Source of the DNA: Flexibacter sp. CG_4_10_14_3_um_filter_32_15
GTDB lineage: Bacteria > Bacteroidota > Bacteroidia > Cytophagales > Bernardetiaceae
Assembly: GCA_002784125.1 (NCBI GenBank)
Contig: PFKD01000287.1
Span: 1-41,890, forward strand
Reading direction: 5' to 3'
Length of the DNA stretch: 41,890 nucleotides
The notes beneath the pieces are model-generated. The model searched no databases, was not told the DNA's origin, and was given only the letters and a program-made list of their open reading frames with translations. Below are positions 556 through 34,126 of the stretch, piece by piece (positions within the stretch are counted from its first letter, which is position 1; every line of letters starts with the position of its first letter). Both the position numbers and the translations under genes were made by a program.

Positions 556-567
556 AACAATATTTTT

Positions 568-13073: not shown

Positions 13074-13136
13074 TTTGAAGTAAGAAAAGAATAGTGAAAT
13101 AATTTTATTTTCTCTACTTTCTCTTCATAGAGATTG

Positions 13137-15206: not shown

Positions 15207-15923
15207 CTATTTTTTCTTTTTTCTTGTAAACCAATCTTTTATTTTTTCTCTCCAATTTTTTTCACATTTTTGGGCAACTCGTTTTGAATTTTCTTCTGTG
15301 TTTGATATATACTTCTTTTCATCTTTAATATAAAAAAATAATTCTTCTTTTTCATCTATTTTTATTTTATCAAAAAAAGCATTAATATCTAAATTTTTTT
15401 CTAATTTAAGAAAGTAGCTATAAGTAGAATCACTCAATAATTTACACATTCTAGATACTTCTATTTCTTTCTTTTGCTCTTTATAGGAAATCACTAGATG
15501 GTATTTTATATCTTCAACTAATGTAGTATCTTTTATTAATTTTTCTGAATGAAGGACTATATTAATATCTATCTTTAATGTATTTTTATTTTTGCAGCAT
15601 TTAACTATATCATCATTATTGTCAGATAAAGGATAAAGAATAATTTTGTTCTTTCCTATAAGTCTATTTTCAGGGTTTTGCTCACTAGTTACAATACTTG
15701 TTGTATCGTCTTGTATAGGGTTTTCGTCTGTTTCACTTTTACCTTCTGGAGAAATAGTAGTTGCTTGTTTAGGTTCTACTATATCTTCCGAAGAAGATGC
15801 TATTACATCTTCTTCGGAAGATATAGTTATCTTTCTTATAGCATCTCGTATGTCTACTAGAGTTTCCTTAGTACAACTACAAGTAAAAAATATCAATAAG
15901 ATAAACAGAGTATTTTTTTTCAT
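15207..15923 (-). CDS. Hypothetical lipoprotein, last intact gene of the cluster
   Basis: A 238-residue protein with a lipoprotein signal: MKKNTLFILLIFFTCSC, with the acylated Cys near residue 17. After it comes an acidic, low-complexity Ser/Glu/Thr linker (about residues 30-85) that contains the near-repeat SSEEDVIASSSEDI, encoded by a perfect inverted repeat in the DNA. The C-terminal half (about 90-225) is a mixed alpha/beta domain with KIDINIVLHSEKL and a very basic end (RKKKK). It starts 14 bases after the stop of the multi-pass membrane gene and is followed by the decayed gene. I do not recognise the family. It is probably anchored in the periplasmic face of a membrane and works with its neighbours. 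Confidence 0.8.
   Translation of the reverse strand: MKKNTLFILLIFFTCSCTKETLVDIRDAIRKITISSEEDVIASSSEDIVEPKQATTISPEGKSETDENPIQDDTTSIVTSEQNPENRLIGKNKIILYPLSDNNDDIVKCCKNKNTLKIDINIVLHSEKLIKDTTLVEDIKYHLVISYKEQKKEIEVSRMCKLLSDSTYSYFLKLEKNLDINAFFDKIKIDEKEELFFYIKDEKKYISNTEENSKRVAQKCEKNWREKIKDWFTRKKKK
15778..15827. repeat. 21-bp perfect inverted repeat inside the lipoprotein gene
   Basis: Left arm 15778-15798 and right arm 15807-15827 are exact reverse complements with an 8-base loop; the core is atatcttccgaagaagat. It lies in the low-complexity linker of the lipoprotein and codes for the similar peptides SSEED and SSSED, which can partly explain the symmetry. Confidence 0.85.
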
Positions 15924-15937
15924 TTTAGCTTTTAGCT

Positions 15938-17065
15938 TTAAGATTCTTTAATAGCTTTTACTAAATCGACAAGCTTATCCAGGAGAAAACTTGGATTTTC
16001 CTTCTCATCTTTTTGAATAATAGATTGTAATTTGGTACTTACTGTATTTTGACCTTGTTGCAAAATAAAATTTCGTTCAATACTTACTAATCCCTTTACT
16101 AATTCAGTAATGTCAATTTCTTTTAGTTCTTCCTCCATTAGAGAATAGAAAACTAACTTTTGCTCTATATTATTTAACTCATTCTGAATATATTTTACCG
16201 TTAATATGTTGTGTCTATATTGGTTAATAAAGGTTCGTATGATTAATGAGGTAGCGACAATTAGAGCTGTTTTTGGGAAAATTAGCCTTATTATTGTTAT
16301 TGTAGTATTGTCTGTTGCTGTTATACTTGTTTCGTTATAAAGCAGAACACAAAATACTGCAAATCCTACTGTAAATGAAAGATAGGCTGCTAGTTGGGCG
16401 TTATGTGCATCTTTTAGAAGTTGTTTTACCTCATCATAAAATCTAGACCTTACTGATTCTGTATAATAATGTACGACCTTTTTGCAATCACTAGAAGTTA
16501 CAAATTCATCTATCTCAAGATGATTCTCATTCAATTTTCCAAATATAGGTTTCCAACTTTGAGATTTTCCAGAAACAAAATAAGACAAGAAAATACCTAA
16601 ATACAACAATGCGCCACTAGCTAAAAGTGCATATACTACTATTTCAGTATTTATGACAGATGTACCTCCTTTTGGGTTTTTATAAAGATATGGATCAAGA
16701 ACAAAAAGCCAAGTGATTATAAGAGCAAAAAATATTAATAAAATAGGTAAAAAATATTTTAAAATAGATTGAAAATAGATTGAAAATAGATTGAAAAATT
16801 TGGGAGTATACTTAAATATATCTATTTGTATTCTGTTTGTGGCTGTATTTCCTTCATTTATAATTGTATTTCTTTTGTTTATAAATACATTGAAGAAAAA
16901 TAGTGCTAAAATAAAAAAACATAGAGAAGTCCATTTTAAAAATGAATATTCTGAAATAGTAAAAGAATACATAAATCCGATAAGACTTACTACTAAAAAG
17001 CCTATTCCTAAATATAAATATAAAACTGAATTTGAAGTGTTAGTATTCATAATTTTAATTATCAA
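15938..17065 (-). CDS. Multi-pass membrane protein with six predicted helices
   Basis: A 375-residue protein, or 370 from the second ATG at 17050. Hydrophobic segments lie at about residues 15-34, 43-62, 102-122, 140-163, 225-243 and 255-277. Between helices 4 and 5 is a soluble segment containing YYTESVRSRFYDEVKQLL, and after helix 6 a helical, charged tail of about 95 residues. A paired-helix block preceded by an R-F-x-E-type helix is seen in membrane domains of some bacterial conflict proteins (for example TRADD-N-associated two-helix domains), but the resemblance is weak and by eye. Its start overlaps the stop of the coiled-coil lipoprotein by 11 bases, or follows it by 4 if the second ATG is used, so the two are probably translated together. 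Confidence 0.8.
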   Translation of the reverse strand: MIIKIMNTNTSNSVLYLYLGIGFLVVSLIGFMYSFTISEYSFLKWTSLCFFILALFFFNVFINKRNTIINEGNTATNRIQIDIFKYTPKFFNLFSIYFQSILKYFLPILLIFFALIITWLFVLDPYLYKNPKGGTSVINTEIVVYALLASGALLYLGIFLSYFVSGKSQSWKPIFGKLNENHLEIDEFVTSSDCKKVVHYYTESVRSRFYDEVKQLLKDAHNAQLAAYLSFTVGFAVFCVLLYNETSITATDNTTITIIRLIFPKTALIVATSLIIRTFINQYRHNILTVKYIQNELNNIEQKLVFYSLMEEELKEIDITELVKGLVSIERNFILQQGQNTVSTKLQSIIQKDEKENPSFLLDKLVDLVKAIKES

Positions 17066-17867
17066 TGTTTTTAATTTCTAAACCTGCTTTATTAGCTTTG
17101 TATGCAGCTCCTGTGTGTCCCAATTCGTTGGCTTGGATGTAAAGTTTTTGGGCTTCTTGAAGGAGTTTTTTCTTTTCTTCTTTTTTTTCTGTTTTGTTTT
17201 TGGTAAAAACGCCTGTTGTTTTGATACCCATTGCCTTATTGTATTTGTCTTCTGCTTGTTTGAATATTTTCTCGGCTTGAAGACTTTGTTCGCTTTTTTC
17301 GGCTTTTAGTTTGTTTTGTTCGGCTATTTCTAAAGCTTCTTGTTTTTGTTTTTCTATTTCAGAAATAGTTTGTTCTTTTTCCTCTATTGTCTTGGTAGCC
17401 ACTCGGTACTTTCCTGTCAGAATTTCGTTTTCTTTGTTAGCTTTCTCTAGTTTGGTATAAAGCACGCTCATTTCTCTTTTTTTACTTTCTAGAGCTGCTT
17501 TCATAGAATTTAGGTAAGAAATAAGTGCATCAACTCCTTTTACACCTGCTAAACTTTCTATTTTTTGATTGATTTGATCTATTTGATTTTCTGCTAATTT
17601 TCTGCGTGAATCAACTTGTTCTAGATACTCTGTTATTTTCTCAGTATCAAAACCTGTCAAATCATCGATAGTACTAAGTGAATCCGAATCATTCAACGAT
17701 TTCATCACACTAGAAATTTGAAGAGCTTGACTACTAAGCTCATCCATTACTAGGCGAACCTGTGCTAATTCGTCTTGACACGGCTTGCAGCTATCTTCAC
17801 TTGAACAAGAAGTGAAGATAACAACTACGAAAAGCAACAAAAAAACTTTAAATTTTATAATTAACAT
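17055..17867 (-). CDS. Coiled-coil lipoprotein with Sel1-like C-terminus
   Basis: From the ATG at 17867 the product has 270 residues; the open frame reaches 17894 but would place nine charged residues before the signal. The signal is MLIIKFKVFLLLFVVVIFTSC with the lipid Cys at residue 21, followed by SSEDSCKPCQDELAQ, a CxxC pair. Most of the protein (about 30-215) is heptad-rich helix typical of a long coiled coil. The last 55 residues (KLLQEAQKLYIQANELGHTGAAYKA read in two parts) resemble one Sel1/TPR-like repeat. It starts two bases after the stop of the preceding gene and overlaps the next, so it sits in a tight operon. It may act as a periplasmic spacer or scaffold. I do not know a named family. 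Confidence 0.82.
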   Translation of the reverse strand: MLIIKFKVFLLLFVVVIFTSCSSEDSCKPCQDELAQVRLVMDELSSQALQISSVMKSLNDSDSLSTIDDLTGFDTEKITEYLEQVDSRRKLAENQIDQINQKIESLAGVKGVDALISYLNSMKAALESKKREMSVLYTKLEKANKENEILTGKYRVATKTIEEKEQTISEIEKQKQEALEIAEQNKLKAEKSEQSLQAEKIFKQAEDKYNKAMGIKTTGVFTKNKTEKKEEKKKLLQEAQKLYIQANELGHTGAAYKANKAGLEIKNIDN

Positions 17868-17869
17868 AG

Positions 17870-18343
17870 TTAGTTTTCTTTTTTTACTGTCCAAAAATCA
17901 TTTTTTATAAAAATAGTATTATCTTTTTTATCTAGCAAAACATTTCCTATTATTTCTTTATTAAAATTAATAGAATTAGAAGAAGGTATGTAAGTTCCTG
18001 TTCCAACGTCCAAAGGTTTTTGAGTAGTAGAAAAATTATACTCAAAACTATAAGTGATACTATCTTGTGTAGTAAGAGAAGTAATATTTATGTTTAGTAC
18101 TTTTCCACCTCCTGTATATTTTCCTTTTATATCTACAAATGGATTACTTGCAGAATTTTCTATATTATTTTTAGGAGAGTTAAAAACAAATAAAGCCAAA
18201 ACCACAATAAGGACTACAATACCACTACCGATACCTATAAATAGAAATGTTTTGTTGTTCTTAGGTGAACTGCTAGGTAAATCCTTTGCTTCATTTTTGG
18301 GAGAATTTGGTATTTGTGGACTTTCGCTTGTTCTATCAAACAT
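17870..18343 (-). CDS. Small single-pass membrane protein (MFDR family), intact paralogue of the pseudogene
   Basis: 157 residues, starting MFDRTSESPQIPNSPKNEAK. A cytoplasmic Pro/Ser/Asn-rich tail of about 30 residues is followed by a membrane helix (FLFIGIGSGIVVLIVVLALF, about 33-53). The outer domain of about 100 residues is rich in beta strands, with a KGKYTGGG motif and alternating hydrophobic residues (KVLNINIT, SITYSFEYNF). The pattern resembles small lipocalin-like or DUF-type beta-sheet domains, but I cannot name one. The decayed gene at 14420-15159 begins the same way and shares GKYKG and the beta pattern. It lies 30 bases downstream of the soluble paralogue gene and 2 bases before the coiled-coil lipoprotein start. 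Confidence 0.82.
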   Translation of the reverse strand: MFDRTSESPQIPNSPKNEAKDLPSSSPKNNKTFLFIGIGSGIVVLIVVLALFVFNSPKNNIENSASNPFVDIKGKYTGGGKVLNINITSLTTQDSITYSFEYNFSTTQKPLDVGTGTYIPSSNSINFNKEIIGNVLLDKKDNTIFIKNDFWTVKKEN

Positions 18344-18373: not shown

Positions 18374-19111
18374 TTATTGAAATTTTATTTTTGCTTTTTG
18401 TTTGACTTCCCAAACTTCTCCATTTTTGATTAAGAAACCTTTTTGTATGGTCTTTACATGAGTGGAAGAAAGAGAAGATAAACCGATTACCTCAAAGGCA
18501 AAATCAAAATCAGATAGCGAACGATAAAATGAAGTGAAAAAATTACTTGTTATGTCTCGATATGTACTAAAAATAGCTTCTGTTGCAGAAATAAGTTGAA
18601 TAACGAATAGGGTATTACTCATCGCTCTTTCTCTTCCTGTTTTTAAAAAGCTTTTTACTTTCGTATTTTCTTTTGTAATTACTTCTACATCTTTTATAGA
18701 AAGGTAACTTTTTGGATAATTTGATTCAGCTTCTATATATTTTTCTTCTAAATAGTCATTTTGATATTGGTCTGTTTTTGGTAATTCTATTTCTTCTGTA
18801 TCAATTTCTATTTCTTTCTGAATTACGATATTATCCGTTTTGACTTCTGTTTTAATTTGTTTTTCAATGATTACAGGTTTTTCCTTAGTTGCTATCATGA
18901 TTTTCATTCCTGTAATTTGAAACATTAAATCCAAAATTTTGGGTTCTTGTTTAGTCGATTTATCAAGTGTTTGATAAAATTTGTTTGCTTCTTTTATTTT
19001 TGTTTCGATGTCATATTTTTGTCCATTAATAAGATTGAGTTGATACAACGCCTTTCCTAAGTTTTGCAGACGAACTCCTTCTTTGAACTTTTGTATCTCT
19101 TCTTCTGTCAT
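18374..19111 (-). CDS. Soluble paralogue with helical module and shared C-terminal domain
   Basis: 245 residues without signal peptide or membrane helix, so cytoplasmic. Residues 1-75 are a variant of the helical module found in the three larger neighbours (here YQLNLINGQKYDIETKIKEA and EPKILDLMFQI). A charged linker follows (about 75-145). The C-terminal domain, about 150-245, matches the tails of the three membrane paralogues: LKTGRERAMSNTLFVI, then NFFTSFYRSLSDFDFAFEV, then VKTIQKGFLIKNGEVWEVKQ. It is closest to the tail of the 810-residue protein just upstream (25-base gap), so it probably arose from it by duplication and loss of the membrane part. It might act as a soluble adaptor competing for the same partner. 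The family is not known to me. Confidence 0.85.
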   Translation of the reverse strand: MTEEEIQKFKEGVRLQNLGKALYQLNLINGQKYDIETKIKEANKFYQTLDKSTKQEPKILDLMFQITGMKIMIATKEKPVIIEKQIKTEVKTDNIVIQKEIEIDTEEIELPKTDQYQNDYLEEKYIEAESNYPKSYLSIKDVEVITKENTKVKSFLKTGRERAMSNTLFVIQLISATEAIFSTYRDITSNFFTSFYRSLSDFDFAFEVIGLSSLSSTHVKTIQKGFLIKNGEVWEVKQKAKIKFQ

Positions 19112-19136
19112 AATTTTTTAGTTTTTTAGTCAAAAA

Positions 19137-21569
19137 TTAGTGAAATTCTATTTTTGCTTTCTCTACTACTTTCCAAACATTCCTTTCTTTGATTAACTTT
19201 CCTTTTTGGATTGTTTTTACAAGCGTAGGAGCTGTAGAAGGTCTTTTCATTACATCAAAAGCAAATTCAAAATTATAGAGTGCATGATAAAATGAAGTAA
19301 AAAAATTGCTTTGCATATTTGGATACGTTTCTAGGGTAGCTTCATTTTCCGAAATCTGTTCAATAATAAAAATAGTGCTACTGACAGATTTGTTACGTCC
19401 TGTTTTCAATTCTTTTACTTTTTCTAGACTATCATTTGAAGATAAATAAAATATTTTTTTCTCAAAATCAGAAGTAATAACAGCTTCGTCTGCCGTTTCT
19501 TTTACTTCTTCCTGCGTTTCTTCAATTTTGCTTTTTTGTTGTTCCTCTACTTCTTTACTTTTTCTTATTTTGAACATCAAATCTTGAATTTGCTCATGTT
19601 GCTGAATTTTTCCGTTATTTTGTTTGTAATATTCATTGGCTTGAGCAAATTTATCTTGTGCTGACTGTTTGCTTGAAATGACAATTTCTAGTGTAGTTTT
19701 TAATTTTTCTAAATCTCTATTAAAAATTATTTCCTCTTCCTGTTCTTTTTTAATTTTTTGTTCAGCTTCTCTTGTTGCTTCTGAAATAACAGTAAATCGT
19801 TTATCATATTCGCTTTTATCCTTGATTTCTTGTTTTTCTTCTACTTCTTTATTTGATTCTATTTTTGCCATTAAAGCCTTGATGTCTTTATGCTGTTGTA
19901 TTTGAGGACTGGCTTTTTGATATTCTGCATTAGCTTGTAAAAACTTATCTTTTGCTGATTGATTTGTATTTATTAGCACTCCCAAAATACTTTTCAATTC
20001 ATATAAATGTTTATTAAATAGTATCTCTTCATCACTTTTCTGTTTTTCTGCTTGATTTGGTTTTTCTTGAATTCTGATAGGTTCAGTTACTTTTTCTATT
20101 TTAGTATTTTTATTTTTTCTAGTAGTAAAAAATACGATTAGAAAAAGGATAATGAAAACAGTTGCTGCCATTGCTATATAAATTATTTTTTTTGAATAAG
20201 GAGAAGGTGTCTCTTTAGGATAAATCTGTATAACACGCTCAAAATTTTGATTGGGAAACTCAATAGTAATTAGTTTAGTTTCTGTTTCCACTTCATAAGT
20301 TATTGATTTTCCTTTTTCGTTTTGATAGATAATTTCGTCTTCCTCTCCTACATCTTTTATTGTATAGACAAATTTAGATCCTTGACTTGATGACCTTTCT
20401 ACGCTGCCGTCTTTTTTAAAATGTTGTACCTCTCCTGTGCTGCTGCTCCTAATTGTGTACTCAAAAATATCTGCTGTAGGTGGTGGTGGTTTTGGAAGTC
20501 CTATTATCTCGACAGTAGATTTACTAATATATTTGCTATTCTTTTTTCCATTCATAAAAGGAGAAACAGTAAATTCTAATAGTGCTTCTACTTCTTTTTT
20601 TGTAGGATCATAAGTAATTCTGTATGTTATATCTTCTTCTTTTGAGTCTTTTATTTTTTTTAAAGAAAAGGCATTATCAATGTCTGTCAAATGTGGCGAA
20701 ATACTTAATCCTACATTTGCATTTTTACTATTGATTTTTACATCAATCTCTTTCTCTCCTTCTTGTAAAGTATAGGTCATACGTGAATTTTTAATTTTCT
20801 CATTATGCTCTCCTTGATTTTGATTATAACCTACTTTATTTTTTATATCATATTTTTTGTTAGGTAACTGAACAGAATAAGAATAATCAATAGAATAATT
20901 TTTAGCTATTTTTTTTAAGTATTTTTCTTTTATACGTATTAGTTTTTGCTCTAATTGCTTAGTTTCTGAATATTTTTCTGTTGCTGGCAAACGATAATAA
21001 TTATGACTTCCATTAAGCTCTTTTTGTATAATACTATTGTATTGCCCTATCTGTGTAATTGCAGTTTGAGTAACATCGCCAAGGAGCGTTTCGATATCTT
21101 GAAACGTATTTACTTCATTTATGTCTTCTCTATGTTCATAGATTTTATCGACAATATTTTTATCTGTTACTCCGTCACGCTTTCTATAATCATCAAAAAT
21201 AGCTGCTACTACTTTTTTTGCAGTTGAATAACCTACTTTAGGTCTTAGTTTTTTTATATCCTTATAAGTTGGGTTTGTCTTCGGGAAAAGATTATCATCA
21301 AGCTGACTTGCTCCATCTAAATTTTTTCTTTCAGAAGCATAATTCAAAATATAATACACCAACTCAAAATCTATTTCTAAAATAGCTTGTTCTAGTTGTT
21401 CATTTATTTCTTGCTTAGAATAGGGGGCTTCATTTTGAGCATAGCAAAAACTTCCTGACCAAAAAAAAATCAAGCTACTCAAAAAGGCTATTACATAAAG
21501 TTTGTTTTTTACTAGATTTTGGATAAACACTAATAAAAACGTCCTTTCATTTTTTGTTCTACTTCCCAT
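19137..21569 (-). CDS. Membrane paralogue 3: signal, outer domain, one helix, two helical modules, shared tail
   Basis: 810 residues. The N-terminus (MGSRTKNERTFLLVFIQNL) precedes an export signal with core YVIAFLSSLIFFWSG ending near CYAQ. The gene start overlaps the previous gene by 40 bases, so translation is probably coupled; no later ATG lies before the signal. The outer part (about 45-455) begins with a helical domain like those of paralogues 1 and 2 and ends with beta-rich segments and a PPPP stretch. The single membrane helix is at about 458-482 (IYIAMAATVFIILFLIVFF). Inside the cell are two copies of the helical module (about 510-570 and 615-670; LKSILGVLI and LKTTLEIVI). The shared C-terminal domain (about 716-810) contains LKTGRNKSVSSTIFII and VKTIQKGKLIKERNVWKV. 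Confidence 0.88.
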   Translation of the reverse strand: MGSRTKNERTFLLVFIQNLVKNKLYVIAFLSSLIFFWSGSFCYAQNEAPYSKQEINEQLEQAILEIDFELVYYILNYASERKNLDGASQLDDNLFPKTNPTYKDIKKLRPKVGYSTAKKVVAAIFDDYRKRDGVTDKNIVDKIYEHREDINEVNTFQDIETLLGDVTQTAITQIGQYNSIIQKELNGSHNYYRLPATEKYSETKQLEQKLIRIKEKYLKKIAKNYSIDYSYSVQLPNKKYDIKNKVGYNQNQGEHNEKIKNSRMTYTLQEGEKEIDVKINSKNANVGLSISPHLTDIDNAFSLKKIKDSKEEDITYRITYDPTKKEVEALLEFTVSPFMNGKKNSKYISKSTVEIIGLPKPPPPTADIFEYTIRSSSTGEVQHFKKDGSVERSSSQGSKFVYTIKDVGEEDEIIYQNEKGKSITYEVETETKLITIEFPNQNFERVIQIYPKETPSPYSKKIIYIAMAATVFIILFLIVFFTTRKNKNTKIEKVTEPIRIQEKPNQAEKQKSDEEILFNKHLYELKSILGVLINTNQSAKDKFLQANAEYQKASPQIQQHKDIKALMAKIESNKEVEEKQEIKDKSEYDKRFTVISEATREAEQKIKKEQEEEIIFNRDLEKLKTTLEIVISSKQSAQDKFAQANEYYKQNNGKIQQHEQIQDLMFKIRKSKEVEEQQKSKIEETQEEVKETADEAVITSDFEKKIFYLSSNDSLEKVKELKTGRNKSVSSTIFIIEQISENEATLETYPNMQSNFFTSFYHALYNFEFAFDVMKRPSTAPTLVKTIQKGKLIKERNVWKVVEKAKIEFH

Positions 21570-23479
21570 ATATCATTTCTTTTTATTAGTTTTCCTTTTT
21601 CAAGTGTTTCGCAGTGTTTAGGGTGTGCTGTGCTATTCAAATCTAAAATAGCAATTCCGTATAAGTAATCTAAAGACCTAAACATAACTTCAAAACCAGT
21701 AGGTCTAATATCATCATGAAGAAAAAGTTCTCCATATTCTACTCCGTTTTTTGTAAAAGACTTTATTACAAAAATAGTATTGCTTGCTGGTCTCTTACGT
21801 CCTTCCTTTATTCCTCCATCGTTGGTAATATCTCTTAGAGAAATATAAGAATCATCATGATAAACAATAACAGGCTCTGCTTTCGTTTCTTTTTTAGTTT
21901 GGTTTGATACTTCTTTCTTTTCATTTGGAATAAAATTAAACTCACTATCAGTTCCACCAAAAAAAGAATTTTCTGTTTCTTTTTCTGTTTCTGCAATTTC
22001 ATTTTTAGGTTCTTGTTTTTCTTCTGCTTCTTTATTTGACTTTATTTTTGCTATTAAAGCTTTTACGTCTTCATTCTGTTGTACTTTGCCATTATATTTT
22101 CGGCACTCTTCATTAGCTTGAGAAAATTTATCTTTTGCTGATTGTTTTGTTTTGATTAGCATACCCAAAACAGTTTTCAATTCTAGTAAATCTGCATTGT
22201 AAGACATTTCTTCTTCATTGTGTCGTTGGCTTGTTGTTAGTTCTTGATTCGCAAGAGTATTAACAGCTATTGGTCTTATATTTTCTGTTATTACGTCTTC
22301 CCCTCTTGGATGTTCTTCTTCTCGTTTTTTAGAACCAAGTAACATAAAGGCTGAAACTAATAATAGAACAAACAAAAGACCTATTCCTCCTATCCAATAC
22401 CAAATAGTAGAGTCTTGTTCTCTTGTTATTAATGGAAGACTTTCCTCTGATTTATTTAAGTTTCTGCTATCTATTTTAATATATGATTTCTTTTCTTTAT
22501 TAGCAGAATGAGTATAACCATGGAGAGTCATTGTAACTACTTCTTGATTTCCTTTCTCTGCTTCTACTATAAAAGTTAAAATAGCTTTATCTACTTTTTC
22601 TTTACTGTATTCATATTCAATAGTTCCATAGCGAGTATTTCTATTATCTTTTTGTGCTATTAATTCTGGTCTATCTTTACTACCAATGTATTCTCTAATT
22701 ACAAAATTCGTACTATCAGTTAGAGTTTGAGAAACTAAAGTAATAGGATTATTACTTATGTTTTTGACAAAGAAATAAATTTTTCCTTTTTTTTCATCAA
22801 AAGTGAAATTATTACCTTCTTTAAAAGTGTTGGTTTCTGATAAACCTATTTTATATTTTAATTCTGCTTTTACTTCTTGTTTTGCATCAGTTTCAGTAGA
22901 AGTTGCAGCCTCATCAATAGGTTTAATACTTTTTTCAGCTATATCATTTAAAGCACTAACCAACTGCTTTTTTTGACTTGAATTGATTGTGTATGGATTA
23001 ATTCTATTCTTATCACTTGGCTCTAAAAACTTATTGTATTGGTTTATCTTCTCGCCTATAAATCTAACTAATGCTGATAAAAAAGCCTTCTTTTCTGCAT
23101 TGGTAGTAATTGGATAAGCTCTTCCATCTATTCTGTAATTATTTTTAATATTGTTTATCTGATCTACATAGTTTAAAGGTGTATTATTCTTTGAATCTTG
23201 TTTATTATGAAATATTATATTTAATGCTTGTGATTTTATATTAGTTATGTTCTTTGCTGCTTCATAGTCTTGTTTTGTACCAAACTCTATTCCTTTCAGA
23301 TAAGTACCTTTTGGCGCACTAACTACATTGTGCCTATACATGCTATATGCAAACTTATAATTTATTTTATCTATTGCATTATTTATTATCTCTTTGTCTT
23401 GTGAGGTCTGCCCAAAAACAGCAGAACCCCAAAACAAAGCAGCTAAAAAAAATACCAAAAAAGTATGGACTGGTTTCAT
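21530..23479 (-). CDS. Membrane paralogue 2: signal, outer domain, one helix, helical module, shared tail
   Basis: 649 residues. The signal peptide MKPVHTFLVFFLAALFWGSA ends near VFGQ. An outer helical domain (about 25-190) is followed by a beta-rich domain (about 205-345) containing KKGKIYFFVKNISNNPITLV, identical in paralogue 1. The membrane helix is at about 357-381 (WYWIGGIGLLFVLLLVSAF), followed by GSKKREEEHPRGEDV. The cytoplasmic part has one helical module (about 425-485, LKTVLGMLIKTKQSAKDKF) and the shared tail (about 545-649): YISLRDITNDGG, KRPASNTIFVIK, FEVMFRSLDYL and LEKGKLIKRNDIWEVE. Parts are nearly identical in DNA to paralogue 1, showing recent duplication or gene conversion. 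The orientation (N-terminus outside, tail inside) is inferred from the signal plus one helix and the basic residues after it. Confidence 0.9.
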   Translation of the reverse strand: MKPVHTFLVFFLAALFWGSAVFGQTSQDKEIINNAIDKINYKFAYSMYRHNVVSAPKGTYLKGIEFGTKQDYEAAKNITNIKSQALNIIFHNKQDSKNNTPLNYVDQINNIKNNYRIDGRAYPITTNAEKKAFLSALVRFIGEKINQYNKFLEPSDKNRINPYTINSSQKKQLVSALNDIAEKSIKPIDEAATSTETDAKQEVKAELKYKIGLSETNTFKEGNNFTFDEKKGKIYFFVKNISNNPITLVSQTLTDSTNFVIREYIGSKDRPELIAQKDNRNTRYGTIEYEYSKEKVDKAILTFIVEAEKGNQEVVTMTLHGYTHSANKEKKSYIKIDSRNLNKSEESLPLITREQDSTIWYWIGGIGLLFVLLLVSAFMLLGSKKREEEHPRGEDVITENIRPIAVNTLANQELTTSQRHNEEEMSYNADLLELKTVLGMLIKTKQSAKDKFSQANEECRKYNGKVQQNEDVKALIAKIKSNKEAEEKQEPKNEIAETEKETENSFFGGTDSEFNFIPNEKKEVSNQTKKETKAEPVIVYHDDSYISLRDITNDGGIKEGRKRPASNTIFVIKSFTKNGVEYGELFLHDDIRPTGFEVMFRSLDYLYGIAILDLNSTAHPKHCETLEKGKLIKRNDIWEVEQKMKGRFY

Positions 23480-23494
23480 TGAAATTGATTTTTC

Positions 23495-25714
23495 TTACAA
23501 GAATTGCACTTTTATAGGCTCTACTACTTTCCAAACTTCTCCATCTTTTTCTAATTTTCCTTTTTCTAATTGTTTTACGTTTTTTACATGTTCAGTAAAA
23601 CCTGAAAATTTCATTACTTTCTCTAAAGTTTCTAAAGAACGAAACATAGACTCAAAACCCATAGTCGTAATAGAATCATGAAGATGAAGCTCTGCATATT
23701 CCCCTCCTCTTTGTGTATAAGGTTTTATAACTAAAATAGTATTACTCATTGGTTTGTTACGTCCTTCTTTTAGTGCCGTTTTATCATCAGTAATATCTCT
23801 TAAAGCAATATAAGAATTATCGCCATAATCAATAAAAACCTCTTTCGGAACAACAGGCTCTGCTTTTATTTCATTTTTAGGTTGATTTGCTACTTTCTCT
23901 GAATGTTTTGGAATAGAGTTAAATTGACTATCAGTTCCACCAAAAAAAGGATTTTCTGTTTCTTTTCCTGTTGGTGGTTCTTTGATTTCATCTTTAGATT
24001 CTTGCTTTTCTTCTCTTTCCTTGTGTAATTCTATCTTTTCCATTAAAGCTTTTACGTCTTCATTCTGTTGTACTCTGTAATTATATTTTCGGCACTCTTC
24101 ATTAGCTTGAGAAAATTTATCTTTTGCTGATTGGTTCGTTCTTATTAAGACAGTTAAAACAGCCTTTAATTCTGATACATCTGCATTGTAAGCCATATCT
24201 TCTTCGTTTTGTTGTGTGTTTGTTGTTTCTTGATTGTTTGGTCTATTCATAAGAGTATTAACAGCTTTTGGTTTTATATTTTCTGTTATTACCTCTTCCC
24301 CTCTTGGATGTTCTTCTTCTCGTTTTTTAGAGCCAAATAACATAAAGGCTACAACTAACAAGATAATAGCTAAAAGACTTATTCCTCCTATCCAATACCA
24401 AAAATTTGAAATTGGAGTTGGATTTGGTTCATTCCCTTCTATTTTAATGCGAATATTATGTACTCTATTTACGTTTTCCATAATTTTTATAACTTCTTCA
24501 CGTTCGCCTTCTGTAGTGTAAGAGTCTATCATTTTATCGCCTTCATAAAAGTAGATAGTATCTCTCACTTTTGCTAATATAGTTTGTTCATATTCAGGTT
24601 TGTCTTTGGGAGAGCTTGCACTTTTTGTAAGAATTTCAGCTGTAGATATAGTATCATTTATTTTATAACTAAATTTTATTGTTTCTTCTCTCTCATTTTC
24701 ATCATTATTATCATCTTGGTCACCCTTTGTTGTATAGCCTTTCAATTTGATTTCTACTGTTTTTTCTAATTCATCGGCTCTTAATACTAAAGTTAAAGTA
24801 GCATCATTTTCTTTATTTTCATTGTATTCATATTCAATAGTTCCATAGCGAATATGCTTCTTCTTATCATCTTTAGAATTTTCTTTCACTATTACTTCTC
24901 GTTTTCCTTTCGTACCAATACTTTCTTCTATTGAAAAATTAGAATTACTAGTCAAAGTTTGAGAAACTAAAGTAATAGGATTATTACTTATGTTTTTGAC
25001 AAAGAAATAAATTTTTCCTTTTTTTTCATCAAAAGTGAAATTAGTACCTTCTTTAAAAGTGTTGTTTTCTGATAACCCTATTTCATATTTTAATTCTGCT
25101 TTTACTTCTTTTTTTGTATTAGTTTCAGTAGAAGTTGTAGCCTCATCAATAGGTTTAATACTTTCTTCAGCTATATTATTTAACGCACTAATTAAGGCTT
25201 CTTTTTGCTTCGATTTTATGATATAAGGGTTTATTGTTCCTTTCTCTGGTTCTAAGAACTTATTGTATTGATTTATCTTTTCTTCTATAAAAGTAACCAA
25301 TGCTGATAAAAAAGTTTCTTTTTCTGTATCAGTAGTAATTGGATAAGTTGTTTTATCTATTTTATAATTATTTTTGATTCCATTTATCTGATCTACATAG
25401 TTTAAAGGTACACCCTCACTCACTTGATTATGAAAGATGATATTTAGTGGTTGTGTTTGTATATTAGTTATACCCTTCGTTGATTCATAATCTTGTTCTG
25501 TTTCGTTAAATTGTACTTTCTTTAACCCCCCTTCTTTATCTTTATTTGGATCTCCTAGATATATATAAGAGTACATAGCATGTGCAAACTTATAATTTAT
25601 TTTATCTATTGCATCGTTTACTATCTTTTTATCTTGTGGAGTTTGCCCCCAAACAGCAGGACTACAAAACAGAGCGACTAAAAAGACGACTAAAAAAGTG
25701 TGTAATGGTTTCAT
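23495..25714 (-). CDS. Membrane paralogue 1: signal, outer domains, one helix, helical module, shared tail
   Basis: 739 residues. The signal peptide MKPLHTFLVVFLVALFCSPA ends near VWGQ. The outer region has the same helical and beta domains as paralogue 2, plus an extra beta-rich segment of about 90 residues before the membrane (starting near ETIKFSYKINDTIST). The membrane helix is at about 437-458 (WYWIGGISLLAIILLVVAF), followed by GSKKREEEHPRGEEV. The cytoplasmic helical module is at about 505-563 (LKAVLTVLIRTNQSAKDKF). The shared tail is at about 633-739: YIALRDITDDK, KPMSNTILVIK, FESMFRSLETL and LEKGKLEKDGEVWKVVE. It is the first gene after the terminator-like hairpin at 25742-25783 and may have its own promoter. 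No family name is known to me. Confidence 0.9.
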   Translation of the reverse strand: MKPLHTFLVVFLVALFCSPAVWGQTPQDKKIVNDAIDKINYKFAHAMYSYIYLGDPNKDKEGGLKKVQFNETEQDYESTKGITNIQTQPLNIIFHNQVSEGVPLNYVDQINGIKNNYKIDKTTYPITTDTEKETFLSALVTFIEEKINQYNKFLEPEKGTINPYIIKSKQKEALISALNNIAEESIKPIDEATTSTETNTKKEVKAELKYEIGLSENNTFKEGTNFTFDEKKGKIYFFVKNISNNPITLVSQTLTSNSNFSIEESIGTKGKREVIVKENSKDDKKKHIRYGTIEYEYNENKENDATLTLVLRADELEKTVEIKLKGYTTKGDQDDNNDENEREETIKFSYKINDTISTAEILTKSASSPKDKPEYEQTILAKVRDTIYFYEGDKMIDSYTTEGEREEVIKIMENVNRVHNIRIKIEGNEPNPTPISNFWYWIGGISLLAIILLVVAFMLFGSKKREEEHPRGEEVITENIKPKAVNTLMNRPNNQETTNTQQNEEDMAYNADVSELKAVLTVLIRTNQSAKDKFSQANEECRKYNYRVQQNEDVKALMEKIELHKEREEKQESKDEIKEPPTGKETENPFFGGTDSQFNSIPKHSEKVANQPKNEIKAEPVVPKEVFIDYGDNSYIALRDITDDKTALKEGRNKPMSNTILVIKPYTQRGGEYAELHLHDSITTMGFESMFRSLETLEKVMKFSGFTEHVKNVKQLEKGKLEKDGEVWKVVEPIKVQFL

Positions 25715-25800: not shown

Positions 25801-28800
25801 TTATGCGTTTAATTTTGTTTGTGCCATAGCCAAAGCCCAATCTCTAATAATTACACGCAGAGGATAGAAAAAGAAGGATTCTCTTACAGGCGTATAACCA
25901 CCATCAGAAGCATTTTTACGCTCATAAATCATTCCTTTTGCTAGTTCTTTCTGCTTGATGCTTTTGAATCCTTTTTCAAAATTTGTAAGGTTTGTTTCTA
26001 TGTTGTAGAATTCAAAACGAGTTTCAGGGTTTTTATTCATACTCAAAAAGATTTCTAAAAACTGATCTAAATTTTTATCTATTCTTAGAGCAAGTTCTCC
26101 TCCTTCTTTTGTGAATTTACCATCTTGTTCGATAAGGTCTTCATAAGTAAGCTGACGATTAGGCAACAAATCGCTTTTCTTTGCATCTATTTCTCCTAAG
26201 AATATAGTATTAATATCTTCTCCTAAGTTTATATTTTTATAAGCTGTAGAAAAGCTATGAATTCCTCCAAAACAAGTAGCTTCTTTTGGTTCTTGAGTTA
26301 CATGCAAATTGATTGTTCCATCATACTGATCTTCAATAGAACTACTACCACTTTCGTCCAAAGAGCCATCTAAGAACGGATTGTAATCTTTTTCTTGCAC
26401 CTGCTGTTCTTCTTGATTTTCTTTTTGTTCTTTTGCTTCAATTTTCAAATCTTTGTATTTGTCATACACCTTCTTAGCAAAAATTTCGGTAAACTTTTGT
26501 ATGTTCTTTTTGTCTTTGGTTACATCTAAGAAATTAAGGTATTTCGAACCTGTACCACTAAAACAAAAGTCTTTTGGGTAAGGCATTCCCTTAATAGCCA
26601 AAAGCTGAACGGCATGATAAATACAAGCTGCATAATGCAATAAGAAAAGCAATAATATATCTTGATCTTCACTCAACTGCTTATCAAAGTCTATGTTTTT
26701 GGCAGAATACATAAAACTTGCTTTATCGGAAGAACTAAAGCGACCACTTTCCATAATTTCGTTGAAAATTATTTCTAATCGTGATCCTTCTGCTTGACTA
26801 ATTCCCTGTTTGGTAAGTTCAATTTTATTTTTAAACCAGTTACGGTATCTTGAAACTATACCCCCTTCTGTTTCTAGGCTTGGGTCTTTTGTGTCTTTTC
26901 CTTCGTAGAGTGTATTTGCTCCAAAATAAGCAGAAGTAGCAATTTTAGTTCTTCCTCCATTAGAAACTAAGGCAATATCTGTCGAACCTCCTCCAATATC
27001 TATTGAAACTACGGAAGAACTCTTTTCTACTTTTCCTTTTGCACGATAATAGAAATAAGGAGCTTCTGATTCGTTCATCAAATGGACATCTACTGATTTG
27101 CTTATTATTTCCTTAGATTTATTTTCCCACAAATTATTGAGGTTGTCAGTAAGGCGTTTTGGCAAACTAAGAGGCTTAAACCAAATTAATTTTGTTCGTG
27201 ATAAATCTCCACCATTCAGAAGTATCTTGTTTCTAATCATGTGGAGTAGTTGTTCTATAAAAACTTCTACTAGCTTAGAATTATCAGCCGACCATTTTAA
27301 GTTTGTTGTTACTCTTTGCGAATGTCTATCTATGTCCAAATAATCTTTTTCATATAGAAAACTGATAGATGAATTGAGCAAAGGATCAAACTTGACATCA
27401 GAAGCGTGAATTAAAGCAGTACGAATAGGAAAGGCATTTCGCCAGTTGCCATAGTTGGATTCTTGTGCTGGTGGATTTCCAATAAGATTAGGCATAAACA
27501 TACGATCTTGAAAGAAAGTAGTCGCTAGTCCGATAGCATTATCATCAAAATCATATCTATCTAGCATGACATGGTTTTTGTCAGCCGTAGGTTTGTTGAG
27601 TGTAACAGTTTGCATATCATCTTCCCCTATAAAGAAAGGATAAGTTTGGATATTTCCTTCTGTTGCAGTATTGCTATCTGTAAAAGCAACGAAACTATTT
27701 GTAGTTCCGAAATCTACAGCTACTGTAAACTGTTTTGGATTGCTTCCTTGTTGTATTGGTTTCTTCCATCTAGGCAAAATCCAGCCTTTTGCTCTGCTCC
27801 CTGTTTTTCCTCTGTAAGGAGTTACTATTTCGATAGCATCAAATGCACACCCTGAAACTGAAAATACAGATAAATGTGAACCTTCTACGTTGCGTTCGAA
27901 TCTACTTATTTTCTGAATAGCAGCATCACTTGTTTCAATAGCCTTTTCTTCATTGTAGGCGTTTAGGCTATATGCTTCTACATTATCTAGCTTAGAAGAC
28001 AGAAGCATGATTTTGTACATAGTATCATTAGCTGCATTTCCAGTACGTATAAATGGGTAAATGCTAATAGAAAAAGGCGAAGGAATATCTTCCATAGTTT
28101 CGTCTTTTCCGTCATCTACTAAATTGATTATTTTTCCGTTGTTATCATTTCTAGGTTTTCCATAATCGTAATAACGAGTAAAAGTCAGATACGATTTTCC
28201 TTCTTCCTCTGTTCCTTTTATTGGTACTCTTAATCGTACTCGTATAGCTCCTTCATTAGAATCTGCTGTTTCGATAGTAAGGTTTTCAATGAGTGTCTCT
28301 TCATCAAAAAACTTGAAATACAAATCCGTAACAGGTAAAAGAAAATCTATATTAGAATCGTGTATGTGATTTTTAGGAACTACAAAACGCTCATCATTAA
28401 TACGATACGGCATACGGATAAGATCTTCTGCTAATAAATCTGTCGTTACCAAATACGGATAACCAAATCCAACCTCTGGAAGATTTCTATCCGACCAGTT
28501 TTCTTTTGGTAATGAGAAAGGAACTTTTGTTTTGTTGCTCCATTCTTTATCTCTAAAGTATTTGAAAGCAGGATTTTCATATCCTTCTTGCAAGACTAAA
28601 GGCAATACTTTTTGTCCTCCTTGTGTTTCTAAAAGAGCTGTTTTTTCTTTTGATTTACTTGGTTTTATCAAATAACTACTCTTTAAGTTGCCATCTGTAA
28701 TAATAGGCGCACAACTTTTCCATGCTACCTTTTCTATACGTGGCGTTTTTCCATCAATGATTACATCATTATAATCTGCATTGAAAGCTCCTAAAGTAGA

Positions 28801-29601
28801 AGTTTCCTCATAAATATCTTTTATTATATCCCCCTTTTTACTGTGATACTTATCCCTTTGGATACGCATATATTCATGAACGTTATCCATTTGATTGAGC
28901 ATATTTTTGTGCAAATGGAAAAGACGATGAACATAGATTTGAAATTCTTCTGAACGTTGGTGCAATGCTCTAATTCCTGTAAACATATCCCTGCCATCTA
29001 TCGTCTTGACACCACTTATGAGTTCTTTATCTACCTTTGGCGCAAGGAAAGCAAAGGTAAGAGGAGAAGTTGCTACGATAGGAGTTGTATCATACGTCAA
29101 GATGTACATATTAGGCGTTTTGCGTTCTCCTTGCATATTTTTTGCGAAAGGAGAAAGATCACCTGTAAAGAGTTCGATAGTTTTTCCTAATAATTGGTGT
29201 CCGTCGTTCTCCGAACTTCTTAGTGATTTTATACGCTCATCTATATTCCATTCTATGATAGCAAAATGTTCTTCTTTATCTGCTTGAAGATGCTCTCTAA
29301 GATTATAAATAAGGTCTATCGCATCAAGACATTCAGAAACAAGTTGATTATAAATAGTTTGTCCTTCGTGTCCTAACTCTTTACGGTTTACCATTTTGAA
29401 GGCAATATCGTAAAGGTGCATTTGTGCAAAAGGCGTAGGAATTGAACTCGGTGGAATAGCTACTTTTGAGCCATTTGGATCTTCTATTTCTTCTATACGA
29501 GAAGAATTATAAATAACGGTTTCGTGCCAGCCTTTTTTATCTGTACTTCTTTCTTGGCGTAGCGTAAGTAAATGACGACTTTCTGGAATTTGTAATGCCA
29601 T
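25801..29601 (-). CDS. Actin/Hsp70-fold ATPase with very large N-terminal extension
   Basis: 1266 residues, much longer than DnaK (about 640). Residues 1 to about 620 form a region of unknown fold, starting MALQIPESRHLLTL and containing PTPFAQMHLYDIAF and many aromatic/Pro blocks. The second half has the nucleotide-binding motifs of the actin/Hsp70/sugar kinase superfamily: phosphate 1 VAVDFGTTNSFVAF at about 628, phosphate 2 SIDIGGGSTDIALV at about 867, and adenosine motif CFSGTGSKYLNF at about 1014. A Gln/Glu-rich low-complexity insert follows (about 1050-1085), then a C-terminal domain with TCFGGIHSF. It lacks the Hsp70 substrate-binding domain, so it is probably not a normal chaperone. 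It lies 36 bases after the tubulin-like gene. SrfB-like proteins have a similar layout, but I cannot confirm that family by eye. Confidence 0.9.
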   Translation of the reverse strand: MALQIPESRHLLTLRQERSTDKKGWHETVIYNSSRIEEIEDPNGSKVAIPPSSIPTPFAQMHLYDIAFKMVNRKELGHEGQTIYNQLVSECLDAIDLIYNLREHLQADKEEHFAIIEWNIDERIKSLRSSENDGHQLLGKTIELFTGDLSPFAKNMQGERKTPNMYILTYDTTPIVATSPLTFAFLAPKVDKELISGVKTIDGRDMFTGIRALHQRSEEFQIYVHRLFHLHKNMLNQMDNVHEYMRIQRDKYHSKKGDIIKDIYEETSTLGAFNADYNDVIIDGKTPRIEKVAWKSCAPIITDGNLKSSYLIKPSKSKEKTALLETQGGQKVLPLVLQEGYENPAFKYFRDKEWSNKTKVPFSLPKENWSDRNLPEVGFGYPYLVTTDLLAEDLIRMPYRINDERFVVPKNHIHDSNIDFLLPVTDLYFKFFDEETLIENLTIETADSNEGAIRVRLRVPIKGTEEEGKSYLTFTRYYDYGKPRNDNNGKIINLVDDGKDETMEDIPSPFSISIYPFIRTGNAANDTMYKIMLLSSKLDNVEAYSLNAYNEEKAIETSDAAIQKISRFERNVEGSHLSVFSVSGCAFDAIEIVTPYRGKTGSRAKGWILPRWKKPIQQGSNPKQFTVAVDFGTTNSFVAFTDSNTATEGNIQTYPFFIGEDDMQTVTLNKPTADKNHVMLDRYDFDDNAIGLATTFFQDRMFMPNLIGNPPAQESNYGNWRNAFPIRTALIHASDVKFDPLLNSSISFLYEKDYLDIDRHSQRVTTNLKWSADNSKLVEVFIEQLLHMIRNKILLNGGDLSRTKLIWFKPLSLPKRLTDNLNNLWENKSKEIISKSVDVHLMNESEAPYFYYRAKGKVEKSSSVVSIDIGGGSTDIALVSNGGRTKIATSAYFGANTLYEGKDTKDPSLETEGGIVSRYRNWFKNKIELTKQGISQAEGSRLEIIFNEIMESGRFSSSDKASFMYSAKNIDFDKQLSEDQDILLLFLLHYAACIYHAVQLLAIKGMPYPKDFCFSGTGSKYLNFLDVTKDKKNIQKFTEIFAKKVYDKYKDLKIEAKEQKENQEEQQVQEKDYNPFLDGSLDESGSSSIEDQYDGTINLHVTQEPKEATCFGGIHSFSTAYKNINLGEDINTIFLGEIDAKKSDLLPNRQLTYEDLIEQDGKFTKEGGELALRIDKNLDQFLEIFLSMNKNPETRFEFYNIETNLTNFEKGFKSIKQKELAKGMIYERKNASDGGYTPVRESFFFYPLRVIIRDWALAMAQTKLNA

Positions 29602-29637: not shown

Positions 29638-31098
29638 TTATATTCTGAAATAGTCTTGATAAATAACATCAGTAGCTTTGTCCATAAGTTCGAGAACTCT
29701 ATCAAAGCCTTTTTCATCTTTTTGTACTTTCCTTATTTGAGAATTAAGAATGACATTGATTTTATCATCAGACAGGCGTTTGGGAATTATCTTATCCATC
29801 AAGCCTTTTTTCATTACCGACCCATGATTTACTACCCATTCATTAATATCTTGACTGACATCAAAAGGCAAAAATTTTCTTTCTTTTACTCCTAGTTCTT
29901 TTATCCAGTTGTTATAATCCTTTAAGAATTTTACTAGAGGTTCGAATTCTCCATTTCCTTTTTTAAAAGCCTGTTCGTGTTGATCCCCTAGAGCTTCTAT
30001 AAACCAAGGCTGGCTAGATGAAGAAGGGCCTAAATTATTATAGATATAAGATAAGAAAAGATTTTTAATTAGAGGTTTGTGGACTAGTGCTTTTGTATGA
30101 TCATCTAAGTCATACAAAGAAAGCTCATTTCTATTTCCATTTATAGCACACTCATGAAAATTTCCATCTCTAAGCGTAGAAGCTACTCCCAAATCATATC
30201 TTTTAGTAGAATCAGCAAAATCAATAATTCCCATAGCAGACATCATTTCTACCAAATGAGAAGCATTTTCTTGTTTTGTTTCATCATTATTGTGCATAGC
30301 CAACTGACTGTCAGCTATATAATAAAGTTCATCTACTCCCTTTAATTGCCCTTCATAAAAAGAAAGTGCTGCCTTTGTTTTGGTAATAAAGGAATTAGAA
30401 TCAATATAGCTTTCGCCATTCTCATTGAGTTTGAAATAAGGCATTACACTAACTGCCCCCTTTACGGCTTTTTGAATATTATCTCCTGCTGTTTGCAAGT
30501 TTTTGAGAAGGAGAGGAAAACCAGATGCTCCTGTTCCACCAAAAATAGAACTCACCATAAAAATTTTGTCGCCTGTATTAAAAACACGTTTGAAGAACTT
30601 AAACTCTTCTGAATCTTCTAGTTTGTTTAAGATAATACTTCCCATACTTGGATTACCACGAAAACCTACTGCCATTTCGCTTTTTCTATCTTTTTCTGAA
30701 AAAAACATAGATACAAAGCTTTGATCTATTGTAGGCATGTCTTTATTGTAGCCTATAAATTCTTCAAAAGTATTTTTGGCATATTTACTAAAACTAAGAC
30801 CAAAAGAATTATCTATATCCTCTGTGTCTTTGATAGTATCGCTGTGAAGTTTTCCTAAAGGTAAAATTTCAGTAGAAAAAAATGAAGCTCTTGTACTTTT
30901 ACTATGTTGATACATCTTTTCATACTGTTCTAACATCATACTTACCTTTCTGTACTCATCGCTTGTTTCATGTGGATCGATAAGAATAGGAATTACCCTT
31001 TCTGCATTTATTTTTACTCCTGAAGAAAGTAGCATAATTAGAGATTTGACTACTCTAGTTCCTGTGCCACCGATTCCAAATATAAAGAGATTTTTCAT
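29638..31098 (-). CDS. Tubulin/FtsZ-like GTPase (Tubulin_2 type)
   Basis: 486 residues. The N-terminal nucleotide site is FIFGIGGTGTRVVKSLIML (residues 4-22), a Rossmann-type loop as in tubulin/FtsZ T1. ILIDPHETSDE follows at the end of the second strand. The tubulin signature appears as SSIFGGTGASGFPLLLKNL at about 180-198, equivalent to the T4 loop GGTG(S/T)G. The remainder is alpha/beta with no membrane segment. This matches the Tubulin_2 class of bacterial tubulin-like proteins rather than FtsZ, which has GGGTGTG and a different C-terminus. Members are expected to bind GTP and may form filaments; that is family knowledge, not visible here. It lies between a small membrane protein (47-base gap) and the actin-like gene (36-base gap). 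Confidence 0.88.
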   Translation of the reverse strand: MKNLFIFGIGGTGTRVVKSLIMLLSSGVKINAERVIPILIDPHETSDEYRKVSMMLEQYEKMYQHSKSTRASFFSTEILPLGKLHSDTIKDTEDIDNSFGLSFSKYAKNTFEEFIGYNKDMPTIDQSFVSMFFSEKDRKSEMAVGFRGNPSMGSIILNKLEDSEEFKFFKRVFNTGDKIFMVSSIFGGTGASGFPLLLKNLQTAGDNIQKAVKGAVSVMPYFKLNENGESYIDSNSFITKTKAALSFYEGQLKGVDELYYIADSQLAMHNNDETKQENASHLVEMMSAMGIIDFADSTKRYDLGVASTLRDGNFHECAINGNRNELSLYDLDDHTKALVHKPLIKNLFLSYIYNNLGPSSSSQPWFIEALGDQHEQAFKKGNGEFEPLVKFLKDYNNWIKELGVKERKFLPFDVSQDINEWVVNHGSVMKKGLMDKIIPKRLSDDKINVILNSQIRKVQKDEKGFDRVLELMDKATDVIYQDYFRI

Positions 31099-33896: not shown

Positions 33897-33928
33897 GTTA
33901 CAATTAGTTACTTGTTTACAAAGAAAGA

Positions 33929-33958
33929 CAAGTATAGTAAAAAATGCTAAATAAACAA
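33929..33958 (-). promoter_or_regulatory. Bacteroidota-type promoter of the cluster
   Basis: On the minus strand TTG (33956-33958), 19 bases, then TATACTTG (33929-33936). This is one mismatch from TAnnTTTG with ideal spacing. It ends 32 bases before the proposed start codon at 33896. Confidence 0.55.
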
Positions 33959-34126
33959 TGGTAATTTCATTAAAACCAGTATTTTTACTGTCCATTTTAT
34001 AATGAATGCGATACACATTAAACTATTTTTATATAAAATTGAACTATTCACTTTATTTTCAATCATAAAAATTTAGTCCTTTCTTATTTTTTACTTTTGA
34101 GGACTAAACACTACTTTATTTTTGCA

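Follow-up and report, generated by a model that had tools for sequence, protein, structure and literature searches.

ZipA spans the membrane with one helix and has, behind a flexible linker, a small C-terminal domain in the cytoplasm. FtsZl1 proteins are encoded with vWA, GTPase and OmpA-family proteins, and the portions available of Makarova and Koonin (2010, PMC2875224) propose a role in membrane remodelling. According to the portions available of two further papers, tubulin, vWA and HSP70 themes occur with DO-GTPases in the DO-GTPase/GAP1-N2 systems, the tubulin/HSP70 themes being found in Firmicutes and Actinobacteria (Kaur et al. 2020, PMC7159879), and vWA proteins stand beside TolQ-like motors (2025 study, PMC12204202). 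Here, a locus of Flexibacter sp. CG_4_10_14_3_um_filter_32_15 is compared with these systems. It lies on contig PFKD01000287.1, of which the whole stretch of 41,890 nucleotides was analysed (the window), and encodes a tubulin/FtsZ-like GTPase (TUB), an actin/Hsp70-fold ATPase (ACT) and four proteins that end in the same domain, the tail. The four are named T4, T3, T2 and T1 in the order of transcription. T1–T4 are the expanded tail-protein part of a conserved Bacteroidota operon; with a probability of roughly 45%, T2–T4 act in it as inner-membrane tethers of the ACT/TUB pair, working like ZipA. Tethering is the simplest model that fits, and we infer the binding of the tail to ACT from synteny only. 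An earlier note on this DNA had given exact coordinates for the four open reading frames:

T4: 23495..25714, minus strand, 739 residues; signal peptide, outer domains, transmembrane helix, helical module and tail; directly after the actin-like gene
T3: 21530..23479, minus strand, 649 residues; layout of the T4 type
T2: 19137..21569, minus strand, 810 residues; signal, different outer domain, transmembrane helix, two helical modules and a tail of the T1 type
T1: 18374..19111, minus strand, 245 residues; soluble; diverged helical module and tail

Comparison with described systems

Operons with FtsZl1, Tubulin_2 (PF13809) and vWA proteins resemble this locus in combining a divergent tubulin/FtsZ-like protein with a vWA protein, and the relatives of the locus share OmpA-domain and membrane proteins with them. 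They differ from it in that the core here includes ACT and a tail protein, with a MotA-type motor in most relatives. The GTPase family described with FtsZl1 was not found by Pfam among the operon proteins of the window, and the available portions of PMC2875224 describe neither an actin-like gene nor the tail domain in FtsZl1 operons. The DO-GTPase/GAP1-N2 systems are alike in grouping tubulin, vWA and HSP70-type genes with variable membrane components. No TRAFAC GTPase or GAP1 was recognised in the unit of the window with Pfam, GAP1 not being searched with a model of its own. An actin-like gene paired with a tail protein, or the tail domain itself, is undescribed in the available portions of PMC2875224, PMC7159879 and PMC12204202; the search covered open-licence literature, and an earlier description is possible.

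With FtsZ-FtsA-ZipA, the locus shares a tubulin homologue, an actin homologue and a one-helix protein with a cytoplasmic C-terminal domain, which is a likeness of layout only. By hydropathy and AlphaFold, T3 fits the ZipA layout with its single helix, flexible linker and cytoplasmic C-terminal domain. It differs in the large periplasmic domain and the signal peptide, and the locus in being a separate, accessory operon that includes vWA and motor genes. The tail gave no PDB sequence or fold match at E < 0.2, solved ZipA domains included, and on present evidence the tail proteins do not appear to be ZipA homologues.

The tail domain and its position in the cell

The tail occupies the end of each of the four genes:

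Tail domain of T4: 23498..23827, minus strand (alignments)
Tail domain of T3, residues 540-649: 21533..21862, minus strand (alignments; AlphaFold)
Tail domain of T2: 19140..19469, minus strand (alignments)
Tail domain of T1: 18377..18706, minus strand (alignments; AlphaFold)

The last ~110 residues of T1–T4 can be aligned, and 20 columns of the alignment are invariant. Pairs of tails scored z = 19–50 above shuffles in Smith-Waterman alignments and none of 300 shuffles reached the score, so that the single C-terminal domain claimed for all four proteins by the earlier note is well founded. The motif pattern given there was recovered as written overall, with small deviations in T2 (SST for SNT, YHAL for FRSL), T1 (GFLIK) and T4 (GKLEK). 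The description of the family as unknown was also correct, as no Pfam or NCBIfam family matched the tail and a PDB search by sequence returned nothing but a weak hit to 2k5q, which was judged a chance match and rejected as a relative (E 0.27). A fifth copy of the tail was absent from the whole source genome. When the T1 tail was modelled alone with AlphaFold (30 homologues), a mean predicted local distance difference test score (pLDDT) of 87.8 and a predicted template modelling score (pTM) of 0.79 were obtained for a fold of beta strands with a short helical insertion.

The position of the tail relative to the membrane was derived from the following features:

Transmembrane helix of T4: 24335..24391, minus strand (hydropathy)
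Transmembrane helix of T3: 22337..22393, minus strand (hydropathy and AlphaFold)
Transmembrane helix of T2: 20130..20186, minus strand (hydropathy)
Outer helical domain of T3, residues 26-193: 22901..23404, minus strand (AlphaFold, pLDDT blocks 53-95)

Three proteins with a signal and one helix and a soluble fourth had been proposed, and hydropathy agrees. T2, T3 and T4 each begin with a hydrophobic stretch and contain a single internal helix, followed by 4–5 K/R within the next 15 residues, while T1 is without a hydrophobic segment. The same helix with following K/R was present in all 58 tail proteins from named genomes in which a helix was called. Several indirect lines, namely the K/R after the helix, the absence of an export signal from T1 and the occurrence of the tail on soluble kinases, show that the tail is intracellular. 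Its fusions to kinases and to Toprim domains likewise argue for a position inside the cell. This matches the cytoplasmic side assumed in the earlier note, and prediction did not place the tail outside.

The AlphaFold model of the complete T3 (23 homologues) had a mean pLDDT of 66 and a pTM of 0.35. It starts with the mostly helical outer domain (26-193); then come a beta region of poor model quality (225-320) and the membrane helix (359-381). Towards the C-terminus, a helical bundle (417-489) and the tail (540-649) are both modelled with confidence, each preceded by a disordered linker. The outer parts of T3 and T4 are 61% identical, their tails 51%, and the outer part of T2 is 27% identical to those of T3 and T4. 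The notion of different outer domains therefore holds for T2 and fails for T3 against T4.

The helical module

The confident helical bundle of T3 (pLDDT 85–96) contains a module that recurs in the other proteins:

Helical module of T4: 24020..24190, minus strand (shuffle z)
Helical module of T3, within residues 417-489: 22031..22201, minus strand (shuffle z; AlphaFold)
Helical module of T2, first copy: 19848..20018, minus strand (shuffle z)
Helical module of T2, second copy: 19554..19724, minus strand (shuffle z)
Helical module of T1, diverged: 18902..19057, minus strand (shuffle z)

As expected from the earlier note, the module is present once or twice before the tail, with one copy each in T3 and T4 and two in T2 (z 21–36 among them), and one diverged copy in T1. 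The latter reached z 8 against the second copy of T2 and was not significant against T3 or T4; against the soluble tail protein of the sister Bernardetia genomes it scored z 23–28. T2 may have arisen by the simple joining of a T3-type protein and an entire T1-type protein: the tail agrees with this, but the second module is nearer to those of T3/T4 than to that of T1.

A conserved operon in Bacteroidota

With the TUB alignment alone, 80 loci were collected from named genomes, spanning Hymenobacter, Pontibacter, Rufibacter, Adhaeribacter, Larkinella, Flavobacteriaceae, Bacteroidales, Saprospiraceae and others. Typically a vWA lipoprotein gene comes first, then those of a small membrane protein, the tubulin-like and actin-like proteins, one tail protein, and a MotA-like and a MotB-like protein. 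ACT follows TUB in 80/80 loci. A tail protein follows ACT, directly or past one small open reading frame, in 76 of the 80 and in 77/77 of the informative loci. Three of the four other loci are contig ends, and the fourth (L232) has its tail protein in an overlapping frame; the apparent lack of the gene there was dismissed as an artefact of the picking of open reading frames. Since the loci had not been selected by the tail, the count is a fair test of its pairing with ACT, and the proposed link of the tail to genes of cytoplasmic NTPases is strong. vWA was found in 79/80 loci, the MotA-like gene in 70 and the MotB-like gene in 62. An Asp motif (e.g. YVDLMTSLF) in the first helix of the MotB-like proteins was detected by pattern in 61/64, and the remaining three have SDLMT.

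In genome G013 the operon is split, with vWA, TM135 (the small membrane protein) and TUB in one part, 235 kb from ACT, tail and MotA in the other (L049, L173), which indicates that the tail travels with ACT rather than with TUB. In G505 (L170, contig C157, 3-4871), a single open frame of at least 1623 residues covers both TUB and ACT and runs off the contig end. It is a single draft contig in which an assembly error is possible, but the fused frame suggests that TUB and ACT touch each other.

A wider proposal was derived from this operon, and it is put forward tentatively. TUB and ACT would form one cytoplasmic unit, bound by the tails to the inner membrane; in the majority of Bacteroidota the tails would also connect it to a proton-driven MotA/MotB-type motor and a periplasmic vWA lipoprotein. 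This would be a trans-envelope machine absent from the searched literature, and the tail would be a new interaction domain by which other proteins, such as kinases and mobile-element proteins, plug into this assembly or a similar one.

Several loci deviate from the usual order. L058 (G050) has three successive tail proteins after the actin-like gene (101-3857), an expansion separate from that of the window. L052, L053 and L056 are without motor genes and have a WG-repeat protein after the tail gene; L052 and L053 also encode a lookalike of retropepsin-type aspartic proteases, recognised by eye. In L085, a more distant operon, an L,D-transpeptidase gene (YkuD, 9e-22) is located two genes past the tail gene (12502-13113). 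L088 (G459) is an operon-like cluster with a stop-broken tubulin-like gene, in which the actin-like gene and the tail were not found. The C-terminus of a 491-residue membrane protein after ACT in L090 was rejected as a tail (not significant, hhalign E 0.1). An outer domain common to the tail proteins of Bernardetia and of distant genomes was not established in a profile test.

Tail domains outside the operon

A scan of contigs with the four-tail alignment gave nothing, as its profile was too narrow, and the TUB alignment worked instead. Tail-only counts were obtained with a deeper tail profile over 292 genomes taken to be Cytophagales, with E-values per genome, and the genomic context of solo tails was judged from individual examples. 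The tail was present in 100 genomes of the 292 and TUB in 90; 84 have both. Of 123 placed tail hits, 85 in 76 genomes share the strand of TUB and are located 4.2–10.9 kb downstream of it. The other hits include ACT-linked ones in G013 and G050 and, in G510, an additional, divergent tail gene next to vWA. A strict tie of the tail to TUB, as seen in a phylum sample (7/7 genomes), was overturned by this order-level search.

Several results weigh against the tether reading. At least 16 genomes have the tail without TUB. Solo tails were found in three settings: in signal-helix-tail proteins of ~400 residues with neither TUB nor ACT nearby (mostly family f14), at the end of Ser/Thr kinases (PF00069, 2e-39) in which no export signal was seen, and in large proteins of mobile-element type (L161–L166), of which those scanned have DUF3945/DUF4099, topoisomerase-repeat or Toprim domains. 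Since the tail is kept in places without TUB or ACT in the vicinity, TUB cannot be needed for its basic function, and ACT is probably not needed either. In addition, no function can be read from the fold, as Foldseek found no match at E < 0.001, either in PDB for the tail and T3 or among viral models for the tail. Finally, the window is without the motor carried by most relatives, and a MotA-like profile search of the seven Bernardetia genomes, the source genome and six sisters, gave no match. A tail dedicated to NTPase binding is not supported by this distribution. The expectation that the domain always occurs near Tubulin_2 or actin-like genes is contradicted by the genomes without TUB as well as by the kinases and mobile-element proteins. 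The possibility, raised in the earlier note, of a common unrelated domain applies in part.

The main rival explanation, which is considered unlikely, takes the tail as a general self-association adaptor, by which the four paralogues would form one mixed membrane oligomer on which ACT and TUB act unbound by the tail. It would account for the spread to kinases and for the multiple copies at least as well as a tether does, given the occurrence of tails in four protein settings unrelated to one another, several of them without ACT or TUB. Operon and solo tails have consensus residues in common and a clear operon-only patch is absent. The four tail proteins in one unit, the soluble form and the three in a row in G050 would also suit an adaptor. 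However, the strict pairing of tail gene and ACT across Bacteroidota exceeds what a generic adaptor needs.

The kinase-tail proteins are encoded in L157 (9523-11694), L158 (9344-11512) and L159 (9162-11294). The kinase of L157 has a weak lipoyl-like N-terminal match, and a second kinase gene adjoins it. The mobile-element tail protein of L166 adjoins a conjugation coupling protein of the TraG/TraD type.

Sister genomes and local expansion

Six sister genomes, taken like the source genome to belong to Bernardetia, have this operon with a pair of tail proteins: a membrane protein of 560–583 residues and a soluble one of 226–267 residues. A CoaE gene adjoins the locus in 6/6 sister loci, and further flank matches, where the compared stretch reaches, are isocitrate lyase/malate synthase (one locus) and NuoM (one locus); the names of flanking genes were read from the sequences by eye and with Pfam. 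Judged by these comparisons, the locus is inherited vertically in all seven Bernardetia genomes. A single tail protein is usual among relatives, and the four of the window are a local expansion in this species. In the tail tree, T3/T4 join the membrane protein of the sisters and T1/T2 the soluble one, with moderate support (89/92 and 90/92).

Another explanation takes the extra copies as recent duplicates of little separate function, so that a membrane-bound tail protein and a soluble one would be all that matters. The exact number of two tail proteins in the sister genomes speaks for this explanation, as do the pairing of T3 with T4 and the T1-type tail of T2, which duplication and fusion would give. 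But the four frames are intact and tightly spaced, and the outer parts of T2–T4 have diverged to 27–61% without decay, which makes this explanation very improbable.

Compared with one sister species, identity is 78% for TUB, 74% for ACT, 76% for TM135 and 67% for vWA, but 23–31% for the outer parts of T3/T4 and 35–47% for their tails. Among the sister species, outer parts are 51–65% and tails 72–80% identical, ranges from which a near-identical pair and a tail pair of 94% identity are excluded. The variable outside and constant inside postulated earlier are thus seen between orthologues, whereas T3 and T4 show the reverse.

These values bear on a further explanation, a receptor array or Zorya-like anti-phage sensor whose outer domains would sense envelope disturbance and signal inside to ACT/TUB. 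In its favour, the outer domains of orthologues change faster than the tails, and T2 differs from T3/T4. Moreover, the motor genes of relatives resemble those of Zorya (ZorA/ZorB; PMC11890865) and other 5:2 proton motors: most relatives have a MotA-type protein with a long cytoplasmic coil and a MotB-type protein with the conserved Asp and an OmpA domain. One MotB-like protein matches ZorB1 (2e-12) and one MotA-like protein ZorA2 (3e-7), and as a group they are distant homologues of ZorA/ZorB, below the NCBIfam cut-offs. The operon differs from Zorya in having vWA, TUB, ACT and a tail protein instead, and the genus of the window is without the motor. Among the operon proteins scanned, PADLOC gave no match to ZorC, ZorD, ZorE or another cytoplasmic effector, and the Zorya label was rejected for want of effectors. 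No nuclease or other effector was recognised in the unit, and TUB, ACT, vWA and the scanned tail protein had no PADLOC match. The vertical inheritance with flanks kept is unlike a mobile defence island. The outsides of T3 and T4 are nearly alike, and the four copies are a local expansion, which does not favour an array. Overall, a receptor array or sensor of this kind is improbable.

Other genes of the unit

The 13 genes of the unit occupy the minus strand between 34016 and 15207 and are spaced by -40 to 86 bp. They encode, in this order, the alpha/beta hydrolase, the vWA-like lipoprotein, TM135, TUB, ACT, T4, T3, T2 and T1, followed by four small proteins that are lipoproteins or membrane proteins. 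The members other than T1–T4 are:

32964..34016, minus strand: alpha/beta hydrolase, head of the unit in this species (PF07819, 1.2e-11)
31575..32951, minus strand: vWA-like lipoprotein (alignment; E-x-S-x-S-M motif resembling a metal-ion-dependent adhesion site, invariant lipobox Cys)
31146..31553, minus strand: TM135, small three-helix membrane protein, conserved operon member
29638..31098, minus strand: TUB, tubulin/FtsZ-like GTPase, 486 residues (Pfam scores; conserved T1 and T4 loops)
25801..29601, minus strand: ACT, actin/Hsp70-fold ATPase, 1266 residues (conserved phosphate and adenosine motifs; profile matches)
15207..18343, minus strand: TM157, coiled-coil lipoprotein, 375-residue membrane protein and 238-residue lipoprotein (gaps -25 to 30 bp)

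TUB matched Pfam below both cut-offs, with 3.8e-6 and 27.7 of 33 bits for PF00091 and 2e-5 and 24.5 of 27 bits for PF13809, and a Tubulin_2 Pfam search of the whole source genome gave no match at E 0.001 and missed it. Its nucleotide loops are well kept (GGTG in 78/78 and the N-terminal loop in 77/78 proteins), and a long coil, which in FtsZl1 proteins comes after the FtsZ-like domain together with a helical C-terminal domain, is not obvious by alignment. The actin/Hsp70 phosphate and adenosine motifs of ACT are located in its second half and are kept in 73–75 of 81 proteins; the family profile matches MreB with E 2e-4, and a Ppx-GppA match of 6e-7 was obtained. The vWA lipoprotein of the window has no Pfam vWA match and is assigned by motif and position; the motif is kept in 75/79 proteins.

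The alpha/beta hydrolase does not adjoin the operon in the six sister loci. The four genes at 15207..18343 are without a clear match in the sister loci, save a weak one for TM157 (17870-18343). A 149-residue open reading frame (14576-15025) matches the sisters' 170-residue gene after the tail genes over only part of its length and looks decayed or frame-shifted; TM157 may be a relative. At 13348-13659, 96 residues are left of an antiporter-like protein of ~576 residues in the sisters, owing to a truncated gene or an assembly error. A terminator-like hairpin is located just upstream of the unit (34159-34135), such hairpins being no commoner than chance in the region. A perfect 20-bp inverted repeat with an 8-base loop lies within the coding region of the 238-residue lipoprotein (15779-15826).

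Proposed mechanism and meaning

According to the tether reading, T2–T4 would be single-pass inner-membrane tethers whose periplasmic part meets envelope partners such as the vWA lipoprotein or the wall. Disordered linker, helical module and tail would extend into the cytoplasm and hold or regulate a polymer or complex of ACT, and TUB via ACT. T1 could be a soluble version that competes with the tethers, bridges them or caps them. In most relatives one tether would work with the proton motor, while in Bernardetia, where the motor pair is absent, several tethers with different outsides may act instead.

If this is true, operons in which relatives of tubulin and actin stand with a fast-changing membrane protein and a proton motor would link both families of cytoskeletal NTPases to the energy of the envelope, and this in common genera, Hymenobacter and Pontibacter among them. 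The tail offers a handle on it, as it is short, confidently predicted, ACT-linked, expressible and testable for binding. The role of operons with vWA and FtsZ-like proteins, long open, thereby becomes directly testable, and the expansion to T1–T4 provides natural variants with a changed outside.

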